IMG/VR virus record: IMGVR_UViG_3300032224_001677
Location: 1 to 41,518 of that record
Reading direction: 5' to 3' (one strand)
DNA: 41,518 bases
Source of the DNA: a virus
Shown here: piece after piece, positions 17,182 to 30,837 of the stretch
How positions within the stretch are numbered: the stretch's first letter is position 1
Layout: every line of letters starts with the position of its first letter
Notes under the pieces: generated by a model
Database searches by the model: none
Seen by the model: the letters and a program-made list of their open reading frames with translations, nothing else
Told to the model about the DNA's origin: nothing
Made by a program: the position numbers and the translations under genes

Positions 17182-17296
17182 GTGATTGTTATTTACAATT
17201 TTGTTATATTCAACATGATTGTAATAAAACGGACACATAAGTTTTCTATATACGTGAGTGGAAAATTTTCCACTATTTTTTATTATAGGAGTTATC

Positions 17297-18241
17297 ATGT
17301 TTAAGAAACTATTTCTTGCGGTTTTAATTACAATTCTTCCATTTGCAGCTTTTGCCTCTGATATCAATGGTGCAGGTGCTACATTTCCATATCCAATTTA
17401 TTCAAAATGGGCAGATGCTTACAAAAAGGCTTCTGGCAATCAATTAAACTATCAATCTATTGGTTCAGGCGCTGGCATGAAGCAAATCGATGCAAAGACT
17501 GTTACATTTGGTGCAACTGATATTCCAGTAAAGCCAGAAGATCTAGAAAAGAAGGGACAGGTACAATTCCCAATGATTGTTGGTGGCATTGTTCCAATCT
17601 TCAATCTTAAAGAAGTTGATCACCTCACATTAACAACAGACATTCTTGCCAAGATTTATATGGAAAAAATTAAACGTTGGAATGACAAGGAAATTGCTGA
17701 CGCCAACCCTGGCGTAAAACTTCCTGATCTTCCAATTATTAAAATTCGTAGAGCTGATGGTTCAGGTACAACCTGGAACTTCACAAAGTTTCTTTCAGAA
17801 GCAAATGCTGATTGGAAGAAGAACTATGGTACCGGTCAGACTGTTGAGTGGCTTGGTGGTGCAATTGGAGCCAAAGGCAATGATGGTGTAGCTGCTAACG
17901 TATATCAGACTAACGGTTCAATTGGCTACGTCGAGTATGCTTTTGCCAAGCAGAACAACCTTCAAGTTGCAGATATGTTAGTTTCTAAAGGTGGTGGCAA
18001 TACTCATCAATTTCTAAAAGTTACTCCAGGTATTGCTTCATTCCAAACAAATTGGCCAATGGTTGCTACTTCTTATATTGTAATGTACAAGGATCCGGCT
18101 GATAAGGATGCTTCCAAGGCTGCAATTAAATTCTTTGAATTTGGTTATGCCAACGATAAGATGGCGCAAGAATTAGATTACGTTCCTCTTACAGCTGCTC
18201 AAAAGGCAGACGTAAAGAAGATCTGGGCTACCATTCAGTAA
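17297..18241 (+). CDS. pstS: Phosphate ABC transporter substrate-binding protein PstS
   Basis: A TAGGAG site lies eight bases before the ATG. The 314-aa protein has a Sec signal (1-20, ending FAAFA). The mature part starts SDINGAGATFPYPIYSKW, the PstS signature, with SGAGMKQI, FGATDIP and RRADGSGTTWNFTKFL supplying the phosphate-binding residues. It would bind phosphate in the periplasm and feed the host PstCAB transporter; no pstC, pstA or pstB is present. Phage pstS genes are known auxiliary metabolic genes in cyanophages. Like the porin it uses many AAG Lys codons. It is bounded by terminators on both sides and thus a separate transcription unit. Confidence 0.95.
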   Translation: MFKKLFLAVLITILPFAAFASDINGAGATFPYPIYSKWADAYKKASGNQLNYQSIGSGAGMKQIDAKTVTFGATDIPVKPEDLEKKGQVQFPMIVGGIVPIFNLKEVDHLTLTTDILAKIYMEKIKRWNDKEIADANPGVKLPDLPIIKIRRADGSGTTWNFTKFLSEANADWKKNYGTGQTVEWLGGAIGAKGNDGVAANVYQTNGSIGYVEYAFAKQNNLQVADMLVSKGGGNTHQFLKVTPGIASFQTNWPMVATSYIVMYKDPADKDASKAAIKFFEFGYANDKMAQELDYVPLTAAQKADVKKIWATIQ

Positions 18242-18307: not shown

Positions 18308-18526
18308 ATGTCTAATCAACGTGCCGGCAAGACTCATGCAGCGTCGTTAAATGATGGTGCCAATATATCGCTTCAGTCGTTACTTAACTTCTGTAAGGAA
18401 GCTCGTAATGATCTTATAAACGAAGGTGAAGATGTTTCTGCTCTTAGGTTTGAGATCCTAGAAGAATGGCTTCGTAATGACTTCAAAGGATCGTTCAAGT
18501 ATCAGTCTAAGATGATTGGATTATAA
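18308..18526 (+). CDS. Small hypothetical protein (72 aa)
   Basis: The ATG directly follows the T-run of the pstS terminator; the only ribosome binding site, GGAGG, is in the terminator stem. An in-frame ATG at 18293 within the stem lacks any such site. The product, SNQRAGKTHAASLNDGANISLQSLLNFCKEARNDL..., is a small helical protein ending KGSFKYQSKMIGL. The function is unknown. It would be translated from read-through transcripts in which the stem is opened. Confidence 0.6.
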   Translation: MSNQRAGKTHAASLNDGANISLQSLLNFCKEARNDLINEGEDVSALRFEILEEWLRNDFKGSFKYQSKMIGL

Positions 18527-18529
18527 ATA
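18522..18529 (+). promoter_or_regulatory. T4-type late promoter TATAAATA
   Basis: An exact TATAAATA octamer at the end of the preceding gene, 48 bases before the next start. It matches the T4 late -10 consensus recognised by gp55. The same octamer precedes three other virion-type genes in this window. Confidence 0.7.
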
Positions 18530-18577
18530 CCATAAATAGACTATAATACAATATCTAAATTAACCTAGGAGAATATA

Positions 18578-18940
18578 ATGACAAACGTAGTAAACAATTA
18601 TGCAGAATTTATATCAAAACAGCTTGTAAGAGAAGGTACAGGTGAAAACAAAGAAATTACTGCAAAGATTAAAAAAACAAAGAAAATTGAAGGTTCTCAA
18701 GACACATCACTAGGACGTGATGCAGAGCATGTTTTTTCAAAAGGTGATGAACATGTATATCACACAAATCCAGGTGGTAGAGATACAGCTCAATACATAG
18801 TGCATAATTCAAAAACAAATAAAATGCATCTTGTTTCTTCCGGTGTTGAAAAAGGTGAAGGTTCACCAAAGCACAAAAGTGTTTCAGCAGATACACTTAA
18901 AGCTATACACAATCACGCTATAAAATATTATAACGATTAA
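18578..18940 (+). CDS. Putative virion-associated protein with leader-like N-terminus (120 aa)
   Basis: A CTAGGAG site precedes the ATG. The N-terminus, NNYAEFISKQLVREG, is a variant of the MKTFxxFIxE leader seen in the following genes, with a candidate cleavage point after LVRE. The rest is hydrophilic, rich in Lys, His and Ser, with HVYHTNPGGRDTAQYIVHNS as a possible small beta domain. Late promoter upstream and terminator downstream indicate a single-gene late transcript. The function is unknown; a minor internal head protein is possible. Confidence 0.6.
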   Translation: MTNVVNNYAEFISKQLVREGTGENKEITAKIKKTKKIEGSQDTSLGRDAEHVFSKGDEHVYHTNPGGRDTAQYIVHNSKTNKMHLVSSGVEKGEGSPKHKSVSADTLKAIHNHAIKYYND

Positions 18941-18966
18941 TTTTAATGTTTTAATTAAAAATCTAC

Positions 18967-18998
18967 AAAAAAAGAGGTTGACACAGCCTCTTTTTTTT
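18967..18998 (+). terminator. Factor-independent terminator
   Basis: AAAAAGAGG pairs with CCTCTTTTT around TTGACACAG, followed by an eight-T run to 18998. The TTGACA in the loop is coincidental. Confidence 0.9.
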
Positions 18999-19047
18999 AT
19001 TTAAATAAATATAAGAAATAAACTGTATTTAGATAATAGGAGCGATT

Positions 19048-20007
19048 ATGTTAACTTTTTTAACTTTTATAACCGAATCAGCAGCAAAATCAGGATATAG
19101 TGACGAACATGCTTTCGCTCATGTTTGGAATCATATGGTTAAACATAAATTAACTCACGATAAAGACGCAATGAATGCTGAATTAGAAAAAGCAAAAAAA
19201 GATAAAACACATCCGTTACATCATAGCAAAATTCCATCTGCTGGTTTCAAAGGCGGTAAAAAAACAGCAGCATCAATAGAAGATTATCATAGAGAATTAT
19301 CAGATGCGGTAAATACTGTTCATGCTATAGCCAAACATCCTGATTTTAAAAAAGCTGTAAAAGAAGGACATCAAGCTAAAGTTATGGGAGCTAGCAGAGG
19401 AGAAGTATCTCCTTTATGGAAGAAACATGGTGCAACTAAAGGTGCTGTTTCTAAATCTGATGTATCTATTTCTAAACCGGGTTCTGAAGAAGGATCTGGT
19501 CTTAAACTTTCATTGAAAAAAGGTGGTGGCTCACAATTAATGTCGGGCGGCCCAGAAGAAAATAAAGCAGTTCATGATCATGCTGCTAGAGAAATGTTAG
19601 ATACTCATCCTGATTATGCTAAAAAATCTAAAAAAGCAAAAGATGCTATTCATAATGATATAATGAGTAAAATGGATGAAGTTACTCATCATTTAAATGC
19701 TATGAAAACTGCTTCACCAGAAAAACAACAAGAGCATAAAAATAAAGCACAAGCTGTTCTTAATGCTGTTCATGATGCTCATCCACATTTGAACTCTTTT
19801 GTCAGAAAAGAAGCTACGACTGGACGTGGTAAATTTGGAGAAAATTCACCTCATGCTGCTTCTTATCTTGTTAAATCTGCAAGTGGTAATAAAACAGCAT
19901 CTATTCAACATGTTAACGAAGTTGATCATAGAGGTCCAAGATTACGAGCGTCGCTACCTAAAAAGACGGGTCGTTCAGGAAATATTAAAGCTGACGAAAG
20001 GTCATAA
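19048..20007 (+). CDS. Lys/His-rich virion-type protein with capsid-targeting-like leader (319 aa)
   Basis: A TAGGAG site precedes the ATG. The N-terminus MLTFLTFITESA matches the leader found on several genes here, with a predicted cleavage after ITE. The mature protein is basic and helical, with abundant Lys, His, Ala and Gly, and segments such as HPDFKKAVKEGHQAKVMG and MKTASPEKQQEHKNKAQAVLNAVHDAHPHL. No enzyme motif is seen. Its composition resembles T4 internal head proteins that coat the DNA. It starts the run of leader-bearing genes from 19.0 to 24.2 kb. Confidence 0.65.
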   Translation: MLTFLTFITESAAKSGYSDEHAFAHVWNHMVKHKLTHDKDAMNAELEKAKKDKTHPLHHSKIPSAGFKGGKKTAASIEDYHRELSDAVNTVHAIAKHPDFKKAVKEGHQAKVMGASRGEVSPLWKKHGATKGAVSKSDVSISKPGSEEGSGLKLSLKKGGGSQLMSGGPEENKAVHDHAAREMLDTHPDYAKKSKKAKDAIHNDIMSKMDEVTHHLNAMKTASPEKQQEHKNKAQAVLNAVHDAHPHLNSFVRKEATTGRGKFGENSPHAASYLVKSASGNKTASIQHVNEVDHRGPRLRASLPKKTGRSGNIKADERS

Positions 20008-20012
20008 TAATA

Positions 20013-20681
20013 ATGAAAACTTTTGCAGAATATATTACAGAAGGTACGGGTGTTGCTTCTGCCAAGCATCAAGAGCATCCTGAAGATAATGCTATTAAAA
20101 GTAAAGCGGGTTTTGCACATGCTGTATCTACTATAAGAGCGTTGCACCACGGATTAAAAACCGGATCAATGCCTGCTGATACTCATGTATCAACAAAAGT
20201 AGATGGCTCACCTGCTTTTCTTGCCATGCGCCATCCGGAGACAGGTGCTGTTATGGTTGCTACTAAACACTCTGCTCTTGGCAACAATCCACGCTGGGCT
20301 TCTACACACGAAGAAGTTGATCAACATTTTGGACACTCTCCAGGTCTTGCAAAGAAAATGCACCATTTGTTAAATCATGTGGGTAAAGTTCTTCCTAGAC
20401 ATGGAATATATGGTGGGGATTATATGCACGATACGCATGAGATACAGCATTCAGATAATGAAATGACATTTAAACCCAATACTATCACATACCATGTTAA
20501 AAAAGGCACTACTGAAGGTAAGAAAATGGAACAATCGAAAATTGGTCTTGCTTTTCATACTAAATTTGAAGGAAATCCTGAACATCCGGAAACTTTGCAT
20601 GCACATCCAATCACCGATCATTCAGTATTTAAAAAGCATCCTGATGTGCATTTAATATCCACGGAGGCAAAAGCAAAATGA
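20013..20681 (+). CDS. Ligase-like nucleotidyltransferase, N-terminal part, with leader
   Basis: The start MKTFAEYITEG is the shared leader, with predicted cleavage after ITE. Further on, STKVDGSPAF contains K62-x-D64-G65, the nucleotide-accepting Lys motif of DNA/RNA ligases and capping enzymes. GIYGGDYMHD (131-140) fits motif III, and MTFKPNTITYHV could be the next strand. I recall related phage proteins of about 350-500 aa (DUF6267-like). This one stops after 222 aa, and the probable remaining motifs are in the overlapping next gene. Binding of ATP is a reasonable inference; ligase activity is not shown. Confidence 0.6.
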   Translation: MKTFAEYITEGTGVASAKHQEHPEDNAIKSKAGFAHAVSTIRALHHGLKTGSMPADTHVSTKVDGSPAFLAMRHPETGAVMVATKHSALGNNPRWASTHEEVDQHFGHSPGLAKKMHHLLNHVGKVLPRHGIYGGDYMHDTHEIQHSDNEMTFKPNTITYHVKKGTTEGKKMEQSKIGLAFHTKFEGNPEHPETLHAHPITDHSVFKKHPDVHLISTEAKAK

Positions 20682-21217
20682 ATCATCTTACTCCAGAAGA
20701 AAGCGCCAAGGTAGAACAGCACCTTAGTAAAGCAGAAGAAATTCATAATAAATTGCCACCAGAACATCACGATATTATCGGCAAACACGATGAACACATG
20801 AGCACTTATATAAACAAAACAGTAAGAACAGGTGAAAAACCTTCTACTGCAGGTTTACGTTCTCATATTGCAGAACGCATGGGCAATGAAGTGGACAAGG
20901 TTAAAACTGATGCTGCAAAAGCAAGAAAAACAGAAGCCATGAATAATGCTCTTGCTCATCACGATACACATGAAAAACATTTTGCCAAAGCATTGCAGAT
21001 ACATTATCATATACAGGCAGCAAAAGATATTGTTACTCATGGTCTGCATAAAGCACAAGAAACTTCCAATCCTATGCAGCAATCTATAGGAGGTGAAAAA
21101 ACAACTCCTGAAGGTTATACGGTTCAGCATAAAGGACAGATTGTTAAAGCTGTTAATCGTCAAGAATTTGCAAAGAAAAATTTCAATCAACCCAAAACAT
21201 GGGCAAAAACACCATGA
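20678..21217 (+). CDS. Ligase-like nucleotidyltransferase, C-terminal part (179 aa)
   Basis: It overlaps the previous gene by ATGA and lacks the leader. The first 130 residues are a charged, His- and Lys-rich helical region. The C-terminal TTPEGYTVQHKGQIVKAVNRQEFAKKNF contains E145-G146 and K157, resembling motifs IV and V of ligase-type nucleotidyltransferases. That suggests both genes together correspond to one protein elsewhere. Either this is a natural split with a two-chain enzyme or the result of a frameshift. A separate helical virion protein is the alternative. Confidence 0.55.
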   Translation: MNHLTPEESAKVEQHLSKAEEIHNKLPPEHHDIIGKHDEHMSTYINKTVRTGEKPSTAGLRSHIAERMGNEVDKVKTDAAKARKTEAMNNALAHHDTHEKHFAKALQIHYHIQAAKDIVTHGLHKAQETSNPMQQSIGGEKTTPEGYTVQHKGQIVKAVNRQEFAKKNFNQPKTWAKTP

Positions 21218-21840
21218 AAACTTTTAGCCAATTTATATCTGAAGAAGAGATCAAACACGGTGTCTTTGCGTTCGGAAGATTCAATCCGCCGACTGTAGGC
21301 CATGAAAAACTGATACATGCTACAGAAAAAGTTGCTGCTAAACATGGTGTAGGAGCAAACATCATAGCTTCTCATTCACAGGATTCATCCAAGAATCCAG
21401 TCCCGACCAAAGCTAAAATAGGCTACTTGAAGAAAGTTGCTGCAAAGACATCCGTTGTATCTCATTCTGACAGCGAAGCTCCTAGCGTGTTGCAACAAGC
21501 AGCAAAGCTCCATAAGCAAGGAGTTACTCATCTCCATATGGTCGCTGGTTCTGATCGTGTGGACGAGTATCATAAATTGCTCCATAAGTATAATGGTACA
21601 CACGAAGGTGCTCTATTTAACTTTAAAAAAATTACTGTACATTCAGCAGGAGCTCGTGATCCCGATGCTGAAGGTACAGCTGGTGTATCAGGAACCAAAG
21701 TTAGAGCCATGGCACATGCAGGCGATACAGAAGGTGTTAAGAAAGCGTTACCTAAAGCTCTCCATCCTCATGTGAAAGAGATCATGGGACACATTCAGAG
21801 CATTAAAGAAGATGCCGATATCGAAAACACAAATTTTTAA
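21214..21840 (+). CDS. HxGH-type nucleotidyltransferase with capsid-targeting-like leader
   Basis: The ATG at 21214 overlaps the previous stop; an ATG 15 bases upstream would spoil the leader. MKTFSQFISEEE is the shared N-terminus, with predicted cut after ISE. The domain that follows has GRFNPPTVGH (21-30), the (H/T)xGH nucleotide motif of the cytidylyltransferase/NMN adenylyltransferase fold, VAGSDR (110-115) and VSGTKVRA (158-165), the counterpart of ISxTxxR. Phage homologues are often called nicotinamide-nucleotide or generic nucleotidyltransferases. The combination of a virion leader with this enzyme suggests delivery into the cell with DNA. Confidence 0.75.
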   Translation: MKTFSQFISEEEIKHGVFAFGRFNPPTVGHEKLIHATEKVAAKHGVGANIIASHSQDSSKNPVPTKAKIGYLKKVAAKTSVVSHSDSEAPSVLQQAAKLHKQGVTHLHMVAGSDRVDEYHKLLHKYNGTHEGALFNFKKITVHSAGARDPDAEGTAGVSGTKVRAMAHAGDTEGVKKALPKALHPHVKEIMGHIQSIKEDADIENTNF

Positions 21841-21841
21841 T

Positions 21842-21849
21842 TATAAATA
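21842..21849 (+). promoter_or_regulatory. T4-type late promoter TATAAATA
   Basis: Exact TATAAATA two bases after the preceding stop and 27 bases before the next ATG. Confidence 0.72.
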
Positions 21850-21875
21850 TATAAAAATCTAACCCGAGAGATAAC

Positions 21876-23531
21876 ATGGCAGCCAATCAACAAACACCAC
21901 AAGCTCCTGCAGATAATGCTAAAGATATAAAAGATAACAAGACCACCAGTTCTAAAAAATTAAAGACGGGTAAAATCAAAGATACGATATCTAAAGGATC
22001 CACCATGGTCGGCAGAACCGAAGCCAATCCTTCGGGCAAAACAGATCAGATTGACATCAATCCCATGCAGAATGAAAATGTATTGAGTCAACTAAATGAT
22101 ATCTATGATAGTGTTATGAATGAGATAGAAGAAAATATTGATTCTATGTTTGAAGAAAAATTTGGCAAGTGGAGAGAAGCTGTTCCTCGTTCAGGTCAAG
22201 ATAGACACACTATCGATTTAACTGTTCGTAATGGTGAAGATCGTAAAAAAGATGATAGACCATATCGTCAGCAATCAATCGTAAAGAAAATTATCGATGA
22301 GAAGTATGGCAAAGGCTATGTATCTTCTGCTTCTAAAATTGAAAAAGCTATGAAAGCAAAAGGCGTAGAGCCCAACTCCAGCGACAAATATCGCCAAGAG
22401 ATGGAAAAAAATTCTGCTGCATATGATGCAATTAAAAAGAAAACTAATGAAGATTTTGAACAACTATTTGAACTCTCGCCACAATTAGTTGGTGCTGTAC
22501 ATAGACGTCATGAAATAGAAGGTGTTCCATACAAATCTAAAGCTGCTTATGACGCAGTAAAAAATGCTGTCAGAAAAGCTGCAGGTATAAAAAAACCAGG
22601 ACCTTATGTGTTTCCTGACGTTGATAAAGTACCTCCTGGCATTGGTATGAATGAAGATTTAAATGATTGGTTTAAAGACAAATGGGTTCGAATGGACACC
22701 AAAGGCAACATCAAAGGCGATTGTGCAAGAGAACCTGGTGAAGGTAAACCCAAATGTCTTCCTGTAGCTAAAGCCAAAGCCATGGATAAAGAAGATCGTG
22801 CGGCCGCTGTCCGTAGAAAAAGAAGAGAAGATCCAGTTGCCGATCGTCCAGGCAAAGGTGGCGCGCCTATCAATGTTCAGACAGAAGCTGCAAATCCTGC
22901 ACAACAAGCAGCAATAGCTATTGCTATGAAGAAAGCTGGCAAGAAACCCAAAAATGAAGAATATATACAAGAAAAACATGCACCCACCAATTCTTTATTA
23001 TGGTCAAAAGCCAAAAGTTTGGCAAAACAAAAATTTGATGTATATCCTTCAGCATATGCAAATGGTTGGGCAGTTAAATGGTATAAATCCAAAGGCGGCG
23101 GCTGGAAATCCATTGAAGAAGATCATGATATTTTAAATGTTCAAGAACAAGGTTGTTCTATAGAAGAGTGGAACGAAGAATTAGGACTTACTGAAGAAAT
23201 ATTTACTCCTTTAGGTAATGAATTGTATGAAGATTGGGGTGAAATTGAAGAAGAAGCAGAACATGATGGACACAGAGTTAAACTTGGTAAACCATTCCAT
23301 ACACCCGGCGGTCCTAAGAAACGTGCTGTTTATGTAAAAAATGATAAAGGCAATGTTGTAAAGGTTAATTTTGGCGATCCTCATCTTTCAATTAAAAGAG
23401 ATCAACCATCAAGAAAAAAATCATACAGAGCTAGACATCATTGCGAAACACCAGGACCAAGATGGAAAGCCAATTATTGGTCATGTAAATATTGGTCCTC
23501 TACTCCAACATCGGTATTAGATAAAGGTTAA
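21876..23531 (+). CDS. Multi-module basic virion-type protein (551 aa)
   Basis: A large mosaic of three Lys/Arg-rich modules joined by acidic linkers. Module one (about 264-320), WFKDKWVRMDTKGNIKG to RRKRRED, resembles a DUF5872-type phage domain. Module two (368-412) begins APTNSLLWSKAKSLAKQKF and ends KWYKSKGGGWKS. Module three (467-540) runs from VKLGKPFHTPGGPKK to CETPGPRWKANYWSCKYW with conserved Cys. I recall each as recurrent in T4-like phages of marine and alphaproteobacterial hosts. Linkers contain I/L-x-E sites, such as YIQE (363-366), that could be cut by the prohead protease, releasing DNA-binding peptides. Late promoter upstream; the next gene overlaps by one base. Confidence 0.65.
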   Translation: MAANQQTPQAPADNAKDIKDNKTTSSKKLKTGKIKDTISKGSTMVGRTEANPSGKTDQIDINPMQNENVLSQLNDIYDSVMNEIEENIDSMFEEKFGKWREAVPRSGQDRHTIDLTVRNGEDRKKDDRPYRQQSIVKKIIDEKYGKGYVSSASKIEKAMKAKGVEPNSSDKYRQEMEKNSAAYDAIKKKTNEDFEQLFELSPQLVGAVHRRHEIEGVPYKSKAAYDAVKNAVRKAAGIKKPGPYVFPDVDKVPPGIGMNEDLNDWFKDKWVRMDTKGNIKGDCAREPGEGKPKCLPVAKAKAMDKEDRAAAVRRKRREDPVADRPGKGGAPINVQTEAANPAQQAAIAIAMKKAGKKPKNEEYIQEKHAPTNSLLWSKAKSLAKQKFDVYPSAYANGWAVKWYKSKGGGWKSIEEDHDILNVQEQGCSIEEWNEELGLTEEIFTPLGNELYEDWGEIEEEAEHDGHRVKLGKPFHTPGGPKKRAVYVKNDKGNVVKVNFGDPHLSIKRDQPSRKKSYRARHHCETPGPRWKANYWSCKYWSSTPTSVLDKG

Positions 23532-23713
23532 TGAAAACATTTAAAACATTCATAAATGAATTACAAGTAAGAGATCCTTCTGGTAAGTTGATAACAATCA
23601 AAAAAGAAATATTCAGAGGATCTGACAATAAAATACACACTGCGTATCCCGGTAAGAGCGCAAGTTCGGGTGGTGGTAGTGGCGGTGGTGCAGCAGGATC
23701 AGGAGACGCATAA
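23531..23713 (+). CDS. Leader peptide with Gly/Ser linker tail (60 aa)
   Basis: MKTFKTFINELQ is the shared leader (predicted cut after INE). It is followed by a short beta segment, VRDPSGKLITIKKEIFRGSDNKIHT, and a flexible tail SASSGGGSGGGAAGSGDA. The stop overlaps the ATG of the Dps gene (TAATG). A targeting leader plus a linker that ends exactly at the Dps start looks like the N-terminal part of a leader-linker-Dps fusion. No classical slippery heptamer is visible. Alternatively it is an independent small head protein. Confidence 0.6.
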   Translation: MKTFKTFINELQVRDPSGKLITIKKEIFRGSDNKIHTAYPGKSASSGGGSGGGAAGSGDA

Positions 23714-24153
23714 TGGATCAGTTAATTGAAAAAATGAAGGCATATCACGCATCTAACTTTGCGTTTTATCTAAAACTACACTTCTTTCACTGGAATGTAG
23801 AAGGACCCAACTTCCCACAATATCATAAATTTTTTCAAAAACTTTATGAAGATGTATTTGAAGCAGCAGATGGTATTGCAGAACATATAAGAGCTCTCCA
23901 GGCATATGCTCCTGGTTCATTCACAAGATTTAGTGCAATGAGTTCTATTGCAGATCAAATTGAACCTATTCCTGCACCAGAAATGATTAATATGGCTATT
24001 GCAGATAATACTAAAATTATGTTTATGATTGCTAATTTAGATAAAATGGCAAATGATGCTGGTGAAATTGGACTTAGCAATTTTCTACAAGCACGTCATG
24101 AAATTCATAGAAAACATCAATGGATGCTCAGAGCAACATCTAAATCTATGTAA
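23713..24153 (+). CDS. Dps-like ferritin
   Basis: A 146-aa four-helix protein with the Dps ferroxidase signature. HFFHWNVEGPNF (24-35) has the conserved His, followed by YHKFFQKLYEDVFEAADGIAEHIRALQ with the Asp and Glu of the DxxxE pair. HEIHRKHQWML closes the last helix. Dps forms a 12-mer that binds and oxidises iron and often binds DNA, protecting it from oxidative damage. It is the only plainly cytosolic, host-type protein in the virion-gene block and is coupled by TAATG to the leader/linker gene. It may be packaged with DNA or act during infection. The terminal Lys-rich DNA-binding tail is short. Confidence 0.85.
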   Translation: MDQLIEKMKAYHASNFAFYLKLHFFHWNVEGPNFPQYHKFFQKLYEDVFEAADGIAEHIRALQAYAPGSFTRFSAMSSIADQIEPIPAPEMINMAIADNTKIMFMIANLDKMANDAGEIGLSNFLQARHEIHRKHQWMLRATSKSM

Positions 24154-24164
24154 TTTTATAAAAT

Positions 24165-24172
24165 TATAAATA
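24165..24172 (+). promoter_or_regulatory. T4-type late promoter TATAAATA
   Basis: Exact TATAAATA in the gap between the Dps gene and the structural gene that starts 49 bases later with an AAGGAG site. Confidence 0.72.
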
Positions 24173-24220
24173 AAAGAACAGTATTATGTTCTTTGTATTA
24201 ATTTTTTAAAGGAGATTAAA

Positions 24221-25099
24221 ATGGCTCAATGGGGCAATACAGACGTAGCAGGTAACTCAGTACTTTGGGGTGTAACTGGATTTTTCGGTGCTCCAAATAC
24301 AACAAATAGATCTGCTTTTTATGGAAATACATCTAAAGGTTCTTTTGTAACCAATCAAATTGTAGGTCAGTTTGGTGCAGATACAACAGAAATTGGCGTT
24401 AATAAAGGTCCTGTTGTTCATATCACAGTAACTAACAACGGAAGTGGTTATACATCTAACACAGCAAACGGTACATTTACTATCACTCTTGGTGGTGCTA
24501 ATACAGGATTAGCACTAAGCGCCAACGCATTTGGTGTTGCTAATAGCACTGGTAGAATTGCTTCAGTTAGTGTTCTTAACAATGGTAACAACTATATTAC
24601 CAGTCCAACATTTGTACTACCAGCACCAGCAACTACAGGGTTCAATGCTAACTCTGCTGTAACAGGTGGAACTGGCGGTGGCGCAAATAGCACTATTGCT
24701 ATTTCATCAGCTCCTTATTTTATTGCCGGTGATATTGTTACTTATGCTAACTCAGCAGGTAATACGGCTATTTCTCCTTTAGCAAATCAAACACAATATT
24801 ATGTTAACTTTGCTAATAATACAGTGGTTGCTCTTTCACTAACCAATTCATCAGCAGTAGCAGATAGAATTACGTTAACAAAAGGCCTTACTGAAACAGG
24901 TCATTCACTAACAGGTCAAACAGCAGCTGCAACTGTTGTTACTGGCGGTGCTAAGAATAAAGGTATGGCACATGCTGGTTGGAATGTACGTAAAGTAGGC
25001 ACTGGTGGACGTGCCGGTCGTGTTCAATACGAAACACTTGTTGCCATGGGCACAATACAGGGCGATGGTGCAGATGATCTGGTGTTACCAGACGCATAA
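24221..25099 (+). CDS. Structural virion protein, Asn/Thr/Gly-rich (292 aa)
   Basis: A strong AAAGGAG site precedes the ATG. The protein is almost all beta with many Asn, Thr, Gly and Ala and nearly no Cys, as in decoration or fibre proteins. The first 60 residues, with WGVTGFFGAPNTTNR, and the last 45, GMAHAGWNVRKVGTGGRAGR to DDLVLPDA, look like conserved ends, while the middle has repeated VTNNGSGYT / VLNNGNNYI units. Late promoter upstream, terminator downstream and high-expression signals support an abundant virion protein. Confidence 0.7.
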   Translation: MAQWGNTDVAGNSVLWGVTGFFGAPNTTNRSAFYGNTSKGSFVTNQIVGQFGADTTEIGVNKGPVVHITVTNNGSGYTSNTANGTFTITLGGANTGLALSANAFGVANSTGRIASVSVLNNGNNYITSPTFVLPAPATTGFNANSAVTGGTGGGANSTIAISSAPYFIAGDIVTYANSAGNTAISPLANQTQYYVNFANNTVVALSLTNSSAVADRITLTKGLTETGHSLTGQTAAATVVTGGAKNKGMAHAGWNVRKVGTGGRAGRVQYETLVAMGTIQGDGADDLVLPDA

Positions 25100-25118
25100 T
25101 AAACAAAATACTATTATC

Positions 25119-25145
25119 AAAAAGGGGGAGCAATCCCCCTTTTTT
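25119..25145 (+). terminator. Factor-independent terminator
   Basis: AAAAAGGGGG (25119-25128) pairs perfectly with CCCCCTTTTT (25135-25144) around AGCAAT, with a T-run. It closes the structural gene. Confidence 0.93.
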
Positions 25146-25178
25146 ATTGACATAAATAAATGATTTACAGAGGTTATA

Positions 25179-26255
25179 ATGCCAAAGATTTCTGAGCTTA
25201 ATGAAATTACATCACTATTTGCAAATGACTATTTCGCTGTAGTTCACGATCTTCAGGGGTTGCCTTCTACAAAAAAAATTAAAGTTAATGATTTAGCCAA
25301 CACACTTCAAACATTTGCCAACTATGCCAACAACACTTCTGCTGGTGTAATAAAAGTTGGTGATAATCTTACAGTAAATTCAACTGGGTATCTTTCTGCT
25401 ACTGCTGGTTCAAATGGATATACCGGATCTAGAGGCTCATCAGGTTATAATGGATCAACAGGCAGTACTGGTTATAATGGATCAACAGGTTCTTTAGGAT
25501 ATACAGGTTCACAAGGTGTTATTGGTTATACAGGTTCTTATGGTAACATTGGTTATACTGGTTCTTTAGGATATACGGGTTCTACAGGTAATACTGGATA
25601 TACAGGTTCGCAAGGTGTAGGGTTCATTGGTTCTACAGGTAATACTGGATATACTGGATCAGCAGGATATAATGGATCAGCAGGATATGATGGATCAGCA
25701 GGATATACTGGATCAGCAGGATATACAGGTTCGCAAGGTGTAGGGTTCATTGGTTCTACAGGTAATACTGGATATAATGGATCAGCAGGATATAATGGAT
25801 CAGCAGGATATACTGGTTCTATTGGTGATACTGGATATACGGGTTCAACTGGTACATTTGCAACTGGTCAAAATATTGTTGCAAGTAGTTTTACATCCAA
25901 TACAGGTAGCTGGACATTAGCTTCAGGTACTAACTCAAAAGACTTTAGTGTACCAGGGCCAGGTACCTACACATTATGGGTAAATGGCAATATTCCTAGT
26001 GGCATAGTTACCTATACTGCTACAGTTGTTGTGACCAATCAAAATGTACCAGTGTTAGGCACTAGTTATGGTTGGTATTATGCAGACGGCAATGCCTTGG
26101 TACTCACAGCAATACCCACTCAGATTGTTGGAACATTAAATGGTATCAGCACTGCCACAGTGAGCACAACAACGGCTTGGAAATTTGCTTTTGGTATTAC
26201 CAACAACAGCGGAACCAGTCAGACAATAAATTATGGTTATACCAGATTAGGATAA
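25179..26255 (+). CDS. Collagen-like fibre protein (358 aa)
   Basis: Three parts are visible. Residues 1-50, [21 protein letters not shown], form an attachment domain shared with the next gene. A collagen-like region (about 78-225) has Gly-x-y triplets arranged as GYTGS, GYNGS, GSxG, likely a trimeric triple helix. A C-terminal beta domain (from about 230), [29 protein letters not shown], may form the receptor or knob part. Collagen-type repeats are frequent in phage tail and head fibres. The repeat DNA contains a 123-bp duplication. Terminators flank the gene. Prolines are absent from the triplets, so stability must come from other features. Confidence 0.82.
25409..25851 (+). repeat. Collagen-type codon repeat with 123-bp tandem duplication
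   Basis: Units of the form GGATATACTGGATCA / GGTTCTACAGGTAAT repeat in 9- and 15-base steps. The block starting TTCGCAAGGTGTAGGG (25607 and 25730) recurs 123 bases apart with nearly identical following sequence, showing recent slippage or recombination. Length variation between strains is expected. Confidence 0.85.
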
Positions 26256-26284
26256 TTTATAATTATACTGAGAATAAGATAATT

Positions 26285-26311
26285 AAAAGGGAAAAAAATC
26301 TCCCTTTTTTT
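26285..26311 (+). terminator. Factor-independent terminator
   Basis: AAAAGGGA (26285-26292) pairs with TCCCTTTT (26301-26308) around an A-rich loop, followed by T residues, 30 bases after the fibre stop codon. Confidence 0.82.
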
Positions 26312-26337
26312 ATATTTAAATGCATGATTAAAAATCT

Positions 26338-26345
26338 TATAAATA
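26338..26345 (+). promoter_or_regulatory. T4-type late promoter TATAAATA
   Basis: Exact TATAAATA 31 bases before the ATG of the second MPKISEL protein. Confidence 0.72.
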
Positions 26346-26375
26346 TATAATCCAACAATCTTATTAGAGAGTGCT

Positions 26376-26939
26376 ATGCCTAAAATTTCCGAATTAAATG
26401 CACTTACTAGCGTAACAAATGACGATTTGGTAGTAGTCGTTAATGATCCAGCTGGATCTCCTTCAACCAATAAGATTACGGTTGGAAATTTCTTTTCTAA
26501 TATTAATGCAACTACCGTTTTTTCTAATAATGTAACATTTAATAAAAGCATTACAATCTCTAATACAACAATTTCAAATGCCACTTTGACATTTTCAATT
26601 ACCAATGTGGGTTCTGGCGCAAATAATTCGGCAAATTCTACAAATTATAAAACAACTGCAACAAAATTAGATGTTAACACAAGCATACAATATTTGTATG
26701 CCAACACCACAGCATACAATTATTATCTACCAGCAGGTTCAAATGGACAGATAATGTATTTTGCTGCTAAATCAAGCACTCACATGGATAATACTTATAT
26801 CTGGATGGATAATTTTAGAGGTTATAATGTAGATAGTTCAAATGCAGAGTGGAAACCATTTACATCAACATGGTCCAGATCTTTTGCTACAGCATGTTAT
26901 ATAGACGGTGCCTGGAACATAGATACCAATAATAGTTAA
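26376..26939 (+). CDS. Fibre-related protein sharing the MPKISEL attachment domain (187 aa)
   Basis: The first 45 residues ([22 protein letters not shown], then DPAGSPSTNKITVGNF) align with the N-terminus of the collagen-like fibre, so both probably bind the same place on the virion. A beta-helix-like stretch of Asn/Thr/Ser residues follows, then a C-terminal domain with GSNGQIMYFAAKSSTHMDNTYIWMD and a Trp-rich end. No collagen repeats are present. It could be a short fibre, a decoy paralogue or the base of a heteromeric fibre. Confidence 0.7.
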   Translation: MPKISELNALTSVTNDDLVVVVNDPAGSPSTNKITVGNFFSNINATTVFSNNVTFNKSITISNTTISNATLTFSITNVGSGANNSANSTNYKTTATKLDVNTSIQYLYANTTAYNYYLPAGSNGQIMYFAAKSSTHMDNTYIWMDNFRGYNVDSSNAEWKPFTSTWSRSFATACYIDGAWNIDTNNS

Positions 26940-26959
26940 TAAGAGTATTTTTAAAAACA

Positions 26960-27352
26960 ATGATTGATAAACTTGACGAGACCAATTTTTTATTATACGC
27001 TGCAAAACATTATGATAATCCCCAGTGTTATGATACTATAGAATTTTATGATGATTTAAAACGATTTAAATATGTCAAAAGATTATTAAACAGATATCAG
27101 GAAGAAAACGATCTTAAAGAGAGATTAATACTCAATCATATTATTATTCTTAATAACGTATTTGGGCCTGTACATACCGCAAAGATGTTATTTTTAAAGT
27201 GCAAAGGCATGGAAGAATATCTAAAACCATTTTTATTATTCTTGAATATCCTGCCTGATAAAATAGAAAATTTAGGTATAGAGTATAAAACAATAAATAC
27301 ATCAGAAATACCTTTAAACGAATTCATATTAAACGAGCTTAGGAACATCTGA
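26960..27352 (+). CDS. Conserved T4-like phage protein (130 aa)
   Basis: A mainly helical protein: YDTIEFYDDLKRFKYVKRLLNRYQEENDLKERLILNHIIILNNVFGP. This ...KRFKYVKRLxxRY...LKERLILNHIIxLxNVFG pattern is one I recognise from hypothetical proteins of many T4-like phages of marine hosts. No catalytic residues stand out. The stop overlaps the next ATG by one base, and conserved linkage to the next gene is likely. The function is unknown; a virion or assembly role is suggested by location. Confidence 0.75.
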   Translation: MIDKLDETNFLLYAAKHYDNPQCYDTIEFYDDLKRFKYVKRLLNRYQEENDLKERLILNHIIILNNVFGPVHTAKMLFLKCKGMEEYLKPFLLFLNILPDKIENLGIEYKTINTSEIPLNEFILNELRNI

Positions 27353-28590
27353 TGATAGTAGACGCAGTATTAACTTATCAGTTTATCAAGAAATTGATAA
27401 CACCATTTAATAAAATGCCAGCATACGCTCTACACCTTATTGATGAAAATGGCAATTTTCTCAAGAACAGAAACTCGTTTACTTCACAAGAAAAAAGTGC
27501 GCTTGGTCTTTTTGATATTATGATTATCAATCTCAAGAAATTGATTGCTAAAGTTCCTTTTGGTAAAACAAGAATTGCCACATTGGCCGCAGCCATGTTG
27601 CTGCTCAGATCTGCTCCATTAAAAGAAGAAGTCTTAACAGACTCAATGTTTTCTTTAGAAGAAGATTTTAATAAAACATTACGAGAATTGGAGTTAATGG
27701 AAGAAATGGGTGCTGTTAACAATGTGGGCGGTATAGCAGGAACAGGCGATACTAGATTGGCAGCAAATCAAAGAGAACCCGGTATTTCTAAATCAGCAGT
27801 TGCTAGATATATTGCCGGAAACAAAAAAACTGCTCCTAAAAAAAAAGTTAAATCCTCCGTATTAACTTCTATTCTTAGACGTAATACAGTAAAAGAAGAT
27901 ACTACTCTACAGTATCATACAGAATTAAATTCTAAAATATGGGACGGATTCAAACTCAAAGATGAAGTGAGAGGTAAACTGCTTCAAATAGCAGCTGCCT
28001 GGATGAATTTTGCTAAAATATCTCCAGATAGAGTACAAGACATTATTATTACTGGTGGTAATGTCAATTTCAATTATACTCCTCTTTCAGATATTGATTT
28101 ACATCTTGTCATATCAAGAGATGATTTAAATCCAGATAGAGCTCTTGTAGACGAATATTTACAAGATAAAAAGATTCTCTGGACATTATCACATCAGAAT
28201 ATTAATATCTACGGATATCCTGTAGAACTATATGCTCAAGATATTTCAGAACAACCACATGCAAATCAGGGTGTTTATTCAATAAGAAATAACGAGTGGA
28301 TATCAATGCCGCAACATCTTGACATTGACTTTGAAAACGACTATCATTTACAGAAGAAAGTTCAGTTCTATAAAGATTTGATTGATAGCATGATTGCTCA
28401 GAATGCCACAGATGGCACTCTTGATATGATTAAACAAAAAATTAAAAAAATGAGAGGTGATTCTATCGCCAAAGATGGTGAGTTTGCTTTTGGTAATCTT
28501 GTGTTCAAAGAGCTTCGTAATCAGGGTTATCTAGATAAGATGGATATGTATCAGAAATCCAATCAAGATAAGGCCATGTCACTATCATGA
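27352..28590 (+). CDS. Phage protein with C-terminal pol-beta-type nucleotidyltransferase domain (412 aa)
   Basis: The N-terminal 120 residues (VDAVLTYQFIKKLITPFNKMPAY, then KVPFGKTRIATLAAAMLLL) form a conserved domain I recall from T4-like phages. After a basic, Gly-rich linker (120-175), the C-terminal domain has ITGGNVNFNYTPLSDIDLHLVI. G235-G236 and D247-x-D249 are the Gly-Gly and metal-binding Asp pair of the pol-beta superfamily, as in minimal nucleotidyltransferases, CCA-adding enzymes and (p)ppGpp synthetases. It may transfer a nucleotide to RNA or protein. It lies in the virion block and may be packaged. The acidic LKEEVLTDS linker holds possible prohead-protease sites. Confidence 0.7.
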   Translation: MIVDAVLTYQFIKKLITPFNKMPAYALHLIDENGNFLKNRNSFTSQEKSALGLFDIMIINLKKLIAKVPFGKTRIATLAAAMLLLRSAPLKEEVLTDSMFSLEEDFNKTLRELELMEEMGAVNNVGGIAGTGDTRLAANQREPGISKSAVARYIAGNKKTAPKKKVKSSVLTSILRRNTVKEDTTLQYHTELNSKIWDGFKLKDEVRGKLLQIAAAWMNFAKISPDRVQDIIITGGNVNFNYTPLSDIDLHLVISRDDLNPDRALVDEYLQDKKILWTLSHQNINIYGYPVELYAQDISEQPHANQGVYSIRNNEWISMPQHLDIDFENDYHLQKKVQFYKDLIDSMIAQNATDGTLDMIKQKIKKMRGDSIAKDGEFAFGNLVFKELRNQGYLDKMDMYQKSNQDKAMSLS

Positions 28591-28973
28591 TGGGTTGGAT
28601 ACTTCGTTTATTTGCTGGCGGTTCTTCACTTCCGTGGATCATTGGCGGCATTATGCTTGCTGTTACTGCGGGATTTACCTGGTTAAAAATACATGACTAT
28701 AATGTATGGGAACAAGCTACTTCTGCTTTTAATCAGGCACAAGAGCAACTGACTCAACAGAAGCAAGAAGAATTTGCGCAAAAAACTGAAACAATTAATG
28801 ACAATGCTGATCGTATCAGAGAAGCCATTGCCAAACATGAACAAGACATGAATGATGTTTCTAATAACATTGAAAAACAAGCCATCACAGAGCATAAAGG
28901 CACCGAGCAGGCGTCTAAATATTTAAAGAATATCATTTATCAATTAGATCAGAATTACGGAGCAAAGAAATGA
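28587..28973 (+). CDS. Inner-membrane spanin (Rz-like)
   Basis: A 128-aa protein with one N-terminal membrane segment (about 15-34, LPWIIGGIMLAVTAGFTWL), then a long charged, Gln/Glu/Lys-rich coiled coil (40-115) in the periplasm. This is the architecture of an i-spanin that links inner to outer membrane at lysis. A matching lipoprotein (o-spanin) is encoded at 30209, unusually separated by one gene. It overlaps both neighbours by ATGA. A generic membrane-anchored virion protein is the alternative. Confidence 0.72.
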   Translation: MMGWILRLFAGGSSLPWIIGGIMLAVTAGFTWLKIHDYNVWEQATSAFNQAQEQLTQQKQEEFAQKTETINDNADRIREAIAKHEQDMNDVSNNIEKQAITEHKGTEQASKYLKNIIYQLDQNYGAKK

Positions 28974-30196
28974 AAAGTTTTAAAGATTTTAAAGAAGAAA
29001 TTGCAGAAGAAACAGAAATGCGCCATTCAAACGATTCGCTTGGAGATCATATGGCTCTTAAAGACTATGCAAAAAAACATGGTGGCATTGATAAAGAAGA
29101 TTTACATACAGCAGCAAAACATATGAAGTCGGGCGATATGGATGCATTAAAAAAGCATCTTCGTAGCATGGATACAGATCCTAGAGATGCAGCTTTGCAT
29201 TATGTTGCAAGACGCCATTATCCAGAGCTCGGATACAGAGTTCATAAAGAAGAAACTGATAAAAAAACTAATCTGATCCCAAAACATAAAGATGATTCGC
29301 CAGATCCATTAGAAAATCGTAAAGGTTATATTCCTGGTGGTATTGCTCCTGGTAGTGGTAATTGGCCAGGACATCCAAACAGAACTAAAAAAATTATGAG
29401 AAGTTTTCCTTTAGATAAAGGTCCAAAACCAAATTTACCTGAAGAAGTTGAAGATATGGAAGAAGGTATTATTAAAGGCACTGCTTCGTTAATTAAACAT
29501 GCTGTTGCAGTACCTGCTAAGACTGCAGGAAGAGTAGCAATGGGTGCTGTTAATGCAGTCCATGCAGTTGCGGGTGGTGTTAAGAATACTGTCAAGGATG
29601 TTAAGGATGCATCTAAGAAGGTCAAAGCAGCATATGCAGAAGAAGTTGAACTTGATGAAGCATTCAAATTAGGTACTGAAGTTATAATACATGATCTTGG
29701 TAAAAGTCACCATGGTAAAAAAGGTATTATAGGTGAAATTCGTCATGGATTACATAGAGGTCAAAGAACATTTGTAGTTTATCACGGCGATCACGGAGCT
29801 ACTCAACTTCCTAAAGAAAACTTAAGAATCGTAAAAGAAGAAGTCGAGCAAGTCAATGAAAACATCGACAAGACTATTGAAAGATTACAAAAACAATATG
29901 ACAAACATGATGTTCTATATGGACGCGCACAAGAAGCTCGCAGAAATAGAGGAAGCAGAACTATGAGTCCTAGAGAAGAAGGACTTCGTAATAAGAGGAA
30001 CACTATTCTAGATCAAATTCGAGATCTTGAAAGACAGAAAAAAGAATCTTCTACTATCAAAGAAGAAGAAATTGATGAAGCAACAAGAGCTGCTATTACT
30101 CTGGCAGCTGCTAGAGCAGCTGCCGCACGTGCAGGTGTTGAAATGAATAATCCTAAGAAACCTAAAAAAGAAAATCCTATTAAATTTAGACCTTGA
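28970..30196 (+). CDS. Virion-type protein with capsid-targeting-like leader and KOW-like domain (408 aa)
   Basis: MKSFKDFKEEIAEE is a variant of the shared leader, with predicted cleavage after IAE. Residues 20-90 are a helical, His/Lys-rich domain (HMKSGDMDALKKHLRSMDTDPRD). A Pro/Gly linker, an Ala/Lys/Val-rich amphipathic region (about 165-215), and a small barrel-like domain (about 225-285, FKLGTEVIIHDLGKSHHGKKG) follow, then coiled coil and an Ala-rich end. Acidic EEVE/EEID sites punctuate the modules. No enzyme motif is seen. It resembles a processed internal head protein with several DNA-binding pieces. Confidence 0.65.
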   Translation: MKSFKDFKEEIAEETEMRHSNDSLGDHMALKDYAKKHGGIDKEDLHTAAKHMKSGDMDALKKHLRSMDTDPRDAALHYVARRHYPELGYRVHKEETDKKTNLIPKHKDDSPDPLENRKGYIPGGIAPGSGNWPGHPNRTKKIMRSFPLDKGPKPNLPEEVEDMEEGIIKGTASLIKHAVAVPAKTAGRVAMGAVNAVHAVAGGVKNTVKDVKDASKKVKAAYAEEVELDEAFKLGTEVIIHDLGKSHHGKKGIIGEIRHGLHRGQRTFVVYHGDHGATQLPKENLRIVKEEVEQVNENIDKTIERLQKQYDKHDVLYGRAQEARRNRGSRTMSPREEGLRNKRNTILDQIRDLERQKKESSTIKEEEIDEATRAAITLAAARAAAARAGVEMNNPKKPKKENPIKFRP

Positions 30197-30208
30197 GAGA
30201 AAAATAAC

Positions 30209-30487
30209 ATGAAATTGTTATATGTGTTACCTTTATTATTGCTTACGGCGTGTCAACACACATCAGTTTCTTTAATTGCACCCGAATATAAGATCGTCAG
30301 AGCTCCTGACGATCTTTACAAGTGCCCTATCGTAACTAAGTTTCCGAAAGATGATACATTGACAGATCAAGAAGTCGGTTCGCTTTTATTAAAACTTCAA
30401 AATAATAATATTACCTGCAGAAGATCATTGGATTCTATTAAACAATTTTATAACGAAGCAGAAAAGACATTGGCAGAACAAAAATGA
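30209..30487 (+). CDS. Outer-membrane spanin lipoprotein (Rz1-like)
   Basis: A 92-aa protein with a lipoprotein signal: MKLLYVLPLLLLTAC gives the lipobox LTAC with Cys15 as the lipidated residue. The remaining 77 residues are hydrophilic and include two Cys (39 and 71 approximately) and a C-terminal helix. This is the form of an o-spanin partner for the i-spanin at 28587. The two are separated by the 1.2-kb leader-bearing gene instead of being nested. A general small lipoprotein cannot be excluded. Confidence 0.75.
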   Translation: MKLLYVLPLLLLTACQHTSVSLIAPEYKIVRAPDDLYKCPIVTKFPKDDTLTDQEVGSLLLKLQNNNITCRRSLDSIKQFYNEAEKTLAEQK

Positions 30488-30837
30488 AAAGTTTTATAGA
30501 ATTTATTAAAGAAGAAAATACACCGCGACCAAAAAAGATGAATGAAATTTTAAATAAATCTCAAATTCGTGCTCTTCATAGACACCAATCATTTAATACG
30601 TATGTGCATTCATACGGTCATCCTGACATCTATGGTAAAGAAGAGAGTGAGTTTGATCAAGGACCTGGAAAAACAAGAAGTGTAATATTAACTAACTCTG
30701 GCAATAAGCACAAGATGCATGTTGCTATCACCCATCGTGGTAAGATCCTTGGGCACACAATATATCGCAAGTCAGACAAACCACATCCAGATGCAACTGT
30801 ACAGTGGGATTTAGTTAAATCTGTCGATGGCAGTTAA
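30484..30837 (+). CDS. Small virion-type protein with capsid-targeting-like leader (117 aa)
   Basis: The ATGA overlap couples it to the o-spanin. MKSFIEFIKEEN is the shared leader, with a predicted cut after IKE. The following domain, ILNKSQIRALHRHQSFNTYVHSYG then VILTNSGNKHKMHVAITHRGKILGHTIYRK, is beta-rich and basic. Strand pattern NKHKMHVAIT is like that of the protein at 18578 (NKMHLVSSG), suggesting distant paralogy. The function is unknown. It is the last late gene before a TTGACA promoter. Confidence 0.65.
   Translation: MKSFIEFIKEENTPRPKKMNEILNKSQIRALHRHQSFNTYVHSYGHPDIYGKEESEFDQGPGKTRSVILTNSGNKHKMHVAITHRGKILGHTIYRKSDKPHPDATVQWDLVKSVDGS

Follow-up and report, generated by a model that had tools for sequence, protein, structure and literature searches.

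A leader in the register of the T4 capsid targeting sequence on a set of genes in a T4-like virus fragment

Five genes with a common N-terminal leader

The DNA analyzed here (the window) is the whole 41,518-nucleotide stretch of IMG/VR record IMGVR_UViG_3300032224_001677, a 41.5-kb piece of the genome of an aquatic T4-like virus, in which five genes begin with the same kind of ten-residue leader. The window also encodes a gp61-type primase, an exonuclease (PHROG 107), a ribonucleotide reductase, a thymidylate synthase, pstS and collagen-like tail genes, and its gene content and order resemble those of Kyanoviridae and similar T4-like phages (Melnitz, S-SM1, C48C1). The tagged genes occupy the locus preceding gp61, which in phages of the Melnitz/S-SM1/C48C1 type is the site of DUF6267 and of the cytidyltransferase T4-GC190. 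These genes, named by the position of their first base, and the leaderless second half of DUF6267 are as follows.

19048 to 20007, + strand: conserved cargo protein of 319 residues, leader MLTFLTFITE at 19048-19077 (relatives L087-L095, alignment A1)
20013 to 20681, + strand: N-terminal half of DUF6267, leader MKTFAEYITE at 20013-20042 (PF19782, 127 bits; alignment A3)
20678 to 21217, + strand: C-terminal half of DUF6267, a separate open reading frame (ORF) without leader (PF19782, 92 bits; ATGA overlap)
21214 to 21840, + strand: cytidyltransferase/NMNAT-like protein, leader MKTFSQFISE at 21214-21243 (PF01467; PHROG 3041 at 2.6e-55)
23531 to 23713, + strand: leader stub, a 60-residue protein with leader MKTFKTFINE at 23531-23560 and a Gly-rich tail
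30484 to 30837, + strand: protein of 117 residues, leader MKSFIEFIKE at 30484-30513 (relative in L087)

A first-pass annotation of the window had proposed that these five starts share a motif, and they stand in exact register with the T4 capsid targeting sequence (CTS), with an aromatic residue at positions 4 and 7 (F4, F/Y7), I8 and E10. When compared with the T4 internal proteins, as that annotation had suggested, they match IPII and IPIII, which, as read from the T4 genome, both start MKTYQEFIAE. The I/L-x-E site, placed earlier some 10-20 residues in, is present in all five but lies exactly at residues 8-10, within the conserved leader, and in 19048, 20013 and 30484 it is the sole such site in the entire protein. 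Mutagenesis of T4 IPIII assigns residues 4 and 7 to targeting and residues 8 and 10 to processing and cleavage, and gp21 cleaves in T4 after L/I-x-E (reviewed in PMC9026906). Because the constant positions of the window leaders (4, 7, 8 and 10) are those same targeting and processing positions, we consider the leader to be a functional peptide.

Ten-residue motifs are short, and a chance similarity of N-termini must be weighed. The exact-register pattern opens 5 of the 64 gene N-termini in the window, compared to 0.0055 expected from composition; shuffling of residues 2-40 gave a mean of 0.0075 matches and a maximum of 2 in 20,000 trials (Poisson P ~4e-14 for the observed 5), the pattern occurs at 2 of 12,207 non-N-terminal positions, and a fuller leader motif, sought in the six-frame translation of the window, falls on the five gene starts only. 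The leaders are moreover kept in relatives whose protein bodies are 56-92% identical, and a scrambled control pattern is almost never found at gene starts. With five observed against about 0.006 expected, chance is refuted for these genes and retains next to no standing as an explanation.

A translation-initiation preference, or a recently copied start region, would also yield similar N-termini, and every leader does start with ATG, the next codon being mostly AAA, as is commonly preferred at initiation. The constraint, however, falls on residues 4, 7, 8 and 10 rather than on the first codons, the leader codons differ synonymously at the Phe, Ile and Glu positions, and in L091 two unrelated genes carry the identical leader MLRFTTWLNE with four synonymously different codons, all of which renders this explanation very improbable. 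The interspersion of tail genes (24221-26939) and spanin-like genes (28587, 30209) with the tagged genes might instead point to another destination, such as the tail or a membrane. Leader hydropathy is nevertheless too low for a signal peptide (12-residue maximum <=1.25, versus 2.79 for PstS) and the register is that of the T4 head CTS and gp21 site, so that we regard this alternative as improbable, if slightly less so.

Two further genes had been listed as leader variants. Gene 28970 was borne out as such: its start, MKSFKDFKEEIAEE, retains F4 and F7, with I-A-E shifted three residues to positions 11-13. The candidate seventh member, 18578 (MTNVVNNYAEFISKQ), was dropped, as its protein has no I/L-x-E anywhere, even though YAEFISK resembles the leader. 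A T4 match, MLLEFKQFLYEAS, was likewise not counted as a leader protein, since it lies inside the annotated uvsW gene.

18578 to 18940, + strand: YAEFISK start, no I/L-x-E, membership unsupported

The cargoes behind the five leaders differ in how far they can be assigned. The 19048 protein matched no Pfam or PHROG family, and its predicted structure (predicted local distance difference test, pLDDT, 65) has no relative in the PDB; a nuclease fold was entertained as a guess and is not claimed. The 20013 protein carries a KxDG motif (TKVDGSPA), noted by eye, and the DUF6267 model (pLDDT 51) was too poor for a ligase-fold comparison. In the window DUF6267 consists of two overlapping ORFs (20013-21217) with the leader on the first half only; the protein is whole in L088 and is split elsewhere along its length in L090, L093 and L095. 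For 21214, whose start (the ATGA overlap with 20678) was chosen over that of a longer ORF from 21199, the PF01467 score is 21.1 bits, at the cut-off (21 bits), with an (H/T)xGH motif within NPPTVGHEKL, and a sequence search of the PDB gave no significant match. The L087 relative of 30484 is 69% identical and starts MKSFLEFINE.

Leader, protease and virion proteomes among relatives

Comparison with relatives indicates that leader and body are exchangeable. The eight sequences of the 19048 family share one body behind three unrelated leaders (MLTFLTFITE, MLRFTTWLNEEALYE and a longer one of the type MI-x-x-Q-(R/K)-K), and in 8/8 an I/L-x-E (ITE, LYE, and LDE or INE) lies at the leader/body junction, with an invariant Glu column (alignment A1). 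Two further candidate leader classes, MKLLTxxGWKxS... and MIxxQ(R/K)KxxWxRAG..., each followed by L/I-x-E, occur on unrelated neighbors at L091 5321 and 9395 and L093 9959 and 10963.

To gauge the spread of the leader, viral contigs were scanned with a DNA pattern for MK(T/S)FxxFIxE, which yielded at least 80 loci, of which 80 were fetched; the figures that follow hold among the matches listed. Of 80 complete ORFs, 79 are at least 54 residues long, and 74/84 starts have an in-frame stop no more than 20 codons upstream, whereas the scrambled control pattern matched 34 times across the entire collection, 4 of these matches being ORFs of such length. At least two other T4-like genes accompany 72/80 leader loci, versus 18/34 control loci (P = 2.6e-5). 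Position 11, which lies outside the search pattern, is Ala or Ser in 50/80, as fits cleavage by gp21 at Glu-Ala; in an alignment of 66 proteins (A5) the sole invariant columns are M1, K2, F4, F7, I8 and E10, all set by the search pattern. The leader heads dozens of unrelated cargoes, including cytidyltransferase, DUF6267, S-adenosylmethionine (SAM) lyase, zeta-like, HicA, HD and HNH proteins, among which PADLOC identified no known defense genes. Tagged proteins with HD_4, HicA and zeta-like domains are among those at L198 1223-1783, L181 12007-12633, L188 2990-3673 and L158 10526-11047, a set in which a possible ADP-ribosyltransferase-like YHGT motif was also noted, by eye only.

A search for a gp21-like protease, also proposed by the first-pass annotation, located S77 protease genes in 9/9 reference phages and in 4/5 contigs from relatives, the fifth being a 15.7-kb fragment. 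T4-type late-promoter octamers ([TCA]ATAAATA) number 17 on the + strand of the window and 0 on the - strand, and precede 18578, 19048, 21876, 24221, 25179 and 26376.

18522 to 18538, + strand: two T4-type late-promoter octamers, TATAAATA and CATAAATA, upstream of 18578
19004 to 19011, + strand: late-promoter-like octamer AATAAATA, preceding the leader operon 19048-21840
21842 to 21849, + strand: late-promoter octamer TATAAATA, preceding 21876 and 23531

As judged from these motifs, the tagged genes are predicted to be expressed late; in the scanned loci, an octamer precedes 17/81 leader genes, only slightly above the 94/628 of other T4-like genes.

Published proteomes report the cytidyltransferase, detected by mass spectrometry (MS), in virions of S-SM1 (T4-GC190), S-SZBM1, S-SCSM1 and S-CREM2. 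The leader heads all four of these virion cytidyltransferases from S77-encoding cyanophages that were checked: MKKFSAFLNEA in S-SM1, MRFRQFIIEA in S-SZBM1, MKSFLQFLKEA in S-SCSM1 and MKNFSSFLTEA in S-CREM2. Further S-CREM2 virion proteins start with it as well (SAM hydrolase, MKDFDSFLEE; kinase, MKRFDAFLTE; ORF13, MKDLHSFLTE; ORF136, MQTFSMFFSE). Overall, 52/219 S-CREM2 proteins were MS-detected, compared to 3/3 exact leader matches (P = 0.013) and 5/6 relaxed matches (P = 0.003), the relaxed set having been chosen post hoc, with the data already seen. The virion-detected, Cas9-like S-CREM2 ORF12 (L137 7704-10313) reads LRFASFMAEA from residue 17, where there is a CTG and no ATG, and may have a misannotated start or a displaced leader.

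Taken together, these data strongly support capsid targeting by the leader, because the positions defined by mutagenesis are conserved, relatives encode the protease and tagged orthologues have been found by MS in virions. The first-pass claim of at least five to seven packaged proteins is well, if indirectly, supported in this respect, with the number amended to five clear members and one variant, 18578 being left out.

Multi-module neighbors

Three longer genes of the window contain multiple I/L-x-E sites or modules that occur separately in relatives.

21876 to 23531, + strand: multi-module protein without leader, five I/L-x-E within residues 413-459
27352 to 28590, + strand: phrog_18642 domain and nucleotidyltransferase (NTase)-like domain (27904-28584), four I/L-x-E between residues 90 and 117
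28970 to 30196, + strand: modular protein with leader variant MKSFKDFKEEIAE (28970-29008), I-A-E at 11-13

The five-site linker of 21876 (~45 residues) separates modules that are encoded as separate genes in a relative, and residues 258-413 are encoded in L087/L088 by a gene of their own with a leader (MLSFNDFILDED...), in the slot taken in the window by the 60-residue 23531 stub. The NTase of 27352 has its own leader in L191 and a homologue in S-CREM2 virions. No relative of the 28970 protein turned up in the phage collection. Its segment 29444-29659 (residues 159-230), delimited by I/L-x-E sites at 158 and 230, is ~82% identical in otherwise different proteins; this segment, found in other contigs, is alanine-rich and basic. 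Since I/L-x-E sites cluster between, or bound, the modules of 21876 and 28970, their sequence suggests that the multi-module proteins are polyproteins cut apart by the protease.

A Dps/ferritin-like protein (23713-24153; PHROG 3636, 'DNA binding protein'), which lacks the leader, overlaps the end of 23531 by one base, an arrangement also kept in L088. The collagen-like tail protein (25179-26255) has a G-x-T/N-G-S repeat, and the PstS-like phosphate-binding protein (17258-18241) has a signal peptide; pstS is a known auxiliary gene of water phages.

Proposed mechanism and relation to known systems

We propose, with a probability of about 0.85, that the leader is a T4-type CTS and that the proteins bearing it are loaded into the head, cleaved by the S77 protease and ejected into the host. 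The leader, its register, its interchangeability, the late promoters and the protease of relatives are read from sequence. For this phage we infer docking, cleavage, ejection and a function in the host, with injection modeled on the T4 internal proteins. The tagged proteins would be made late from TATAAATA-type promoters; each protein would attach to the scaffold core of the prohead through leader residues 4 and 7, and the shell would then close around the cargo. A gp21-like S77 protease would cut after the Glu of the I/L-x-E (8-10), so that the mature protein would lie free within the head and, at the next infection, enter the host together with the DNA. The predicted cargo comprises the NMNAT/cytidyltransferase-like enzyme, the DUF6267 protein and three further proteins, and 21876, 27352 and 28970 probably yield extra pieces, excised at internal I/L-x-E sites. 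It is thus probable that the virus particle contains a small number of preformed enzymes that are released into the infected bacterium.

Several observations weigh against this proposal. The 41.5-kb contig contains no S77 protease gene, which is inferred from relatives, and the virion proteomes likewise are those of relatives. The proteome samples were CsCl-purified and their authors allow for carry-over; the published reports, in the parts available, give no N-termini. Some cyanophage DUF6267 orthologues have no recognizable leader. S-CBWM1 has no detectable S77 gene and lists a leaderless NMNAT in its virion; therefore, virion presence does not require the leader. Internal I/L-x-E sites in the cargo occur at 0.70 of expectation, versus 1.29 in neighbors, a difference not used because a control motif is depleted too.

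The leader might also be a genuine docking and cleavage signal on proteins that are mainly structural or scaffold components, staying in the head or being degraded there, and not host effectors. The T4 core proteins gp22, gp67 and gp68 are indeed also cut by gp21 (PMC9026906), the 28970 segment recurs in a G002 gene beside gp21, gp22 and gp23, and several cargoes have no recognizable enzymatic domain. On the other hand, the leader occurs elsewhere on proteins that resemble enzymes or toxins (SAM lyase, HD hydrolase, HicA, zeta-like, HNH, cytidyltransferase), the virions of S-CREM2 include a kinase and a SAM hydrolase that bear it, and T4 Ip1-3 are injected anti-restriction proteins (PMC12373910). 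We consider a structural role unlikely, although it carries appreciably more weight than the other alternatives, and favor delivery to the host.

A broader reading, to which we give even odds, is that the CTS serves as an open delivery tag across ocean and lake T4-like viruses, with dozens of cargoes behind interchangeable leader classes and others within gp21-cut polyproteins; the cargoes would include predicted SAM lyases, HD-domain (SpoT-like) hydrolases, HicA- and zeta-like proteins, kinases and NMNAT-like enzymes. If so, the head would be a compartment delivering many different proteins to the host, and early-acting enzymes, such as an anti-restriction SAM lyase or NAD-related enzymes, would be sensible preloaded cargo. 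With such a tag, sequence alone would suffice to catalogue the delivered proteins of a virus group that is among the most abundant in water, and cyanophage proteome studies gain a legible N-terminal signal, complete with its predicted cleavage site, to look for.

Among known systems, T-even phages have at least 10 reported internal proteins recognized by their CTS, of which Ip1-3 of T4 are injected and inhibit type IV restriction enzymes (PMC12373910). The window proteins share with T4 IPI, IPII and IPIII a ten-residue N-terminal leader on unrelated proteins, with aromatics at 4 and 7 and I-x-E at 8-10. They differ in that their mature parts match no Ip1-3 family (a separation made by family search, not alignment) and one cargo belongs to an enzyme family, while relatives add leaders of other classes as well as multi-module proteins. 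T4 Alt, an ADP-ribosyltransferase, is likewise a head-packaged enzyme that undergoes trimming by gp21 and reaches the host, but the tagged proteins of the window have no Alt-like family match and their enzyme types differ. The ejection proteins of the giant phages SPN3US and phiKZ are also head cargo cut after a short x-x-E by a gp21-related protease, although their propeptides often exceed 100 residues, with S/A-x-E-type sites, in contrast to the ten-residue CTS.

The closest parallel is the cyanophage virion cytidyltransferase/NMNAT (T4-GC190; S-SM1, S-SZBM1, S-SCSM1, S-CREM2), which is homologous to the 21214 protein, lies upstream of the gp61 primase gene, carries the leader and is detected in virions; the window protein is shorter (208 residues) and its phage is known from 41.5 kb alone. 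Cytidyltransferases, kinases and SAM hydrolase recur in cyanophage virions, and the authors of these studies could not decide between cargo and contamination (PMC10665884, PMC9602691); the available parts of the cytidyltransferase papers state no loading signal. We found no description, in the open-access papers searched, of the CTS in cyanophage-type T4-like viruses, or as the loading signal of their virion enzymes. The suggestion that these proteins form an undescribed set is therefore to be qualified: both the CTS-bearing injected proteins of T-even phages and the virion cytidyltransferases of cyanophages were already known, whereas the link between them, and its scale, appear to be new in the literature searched.

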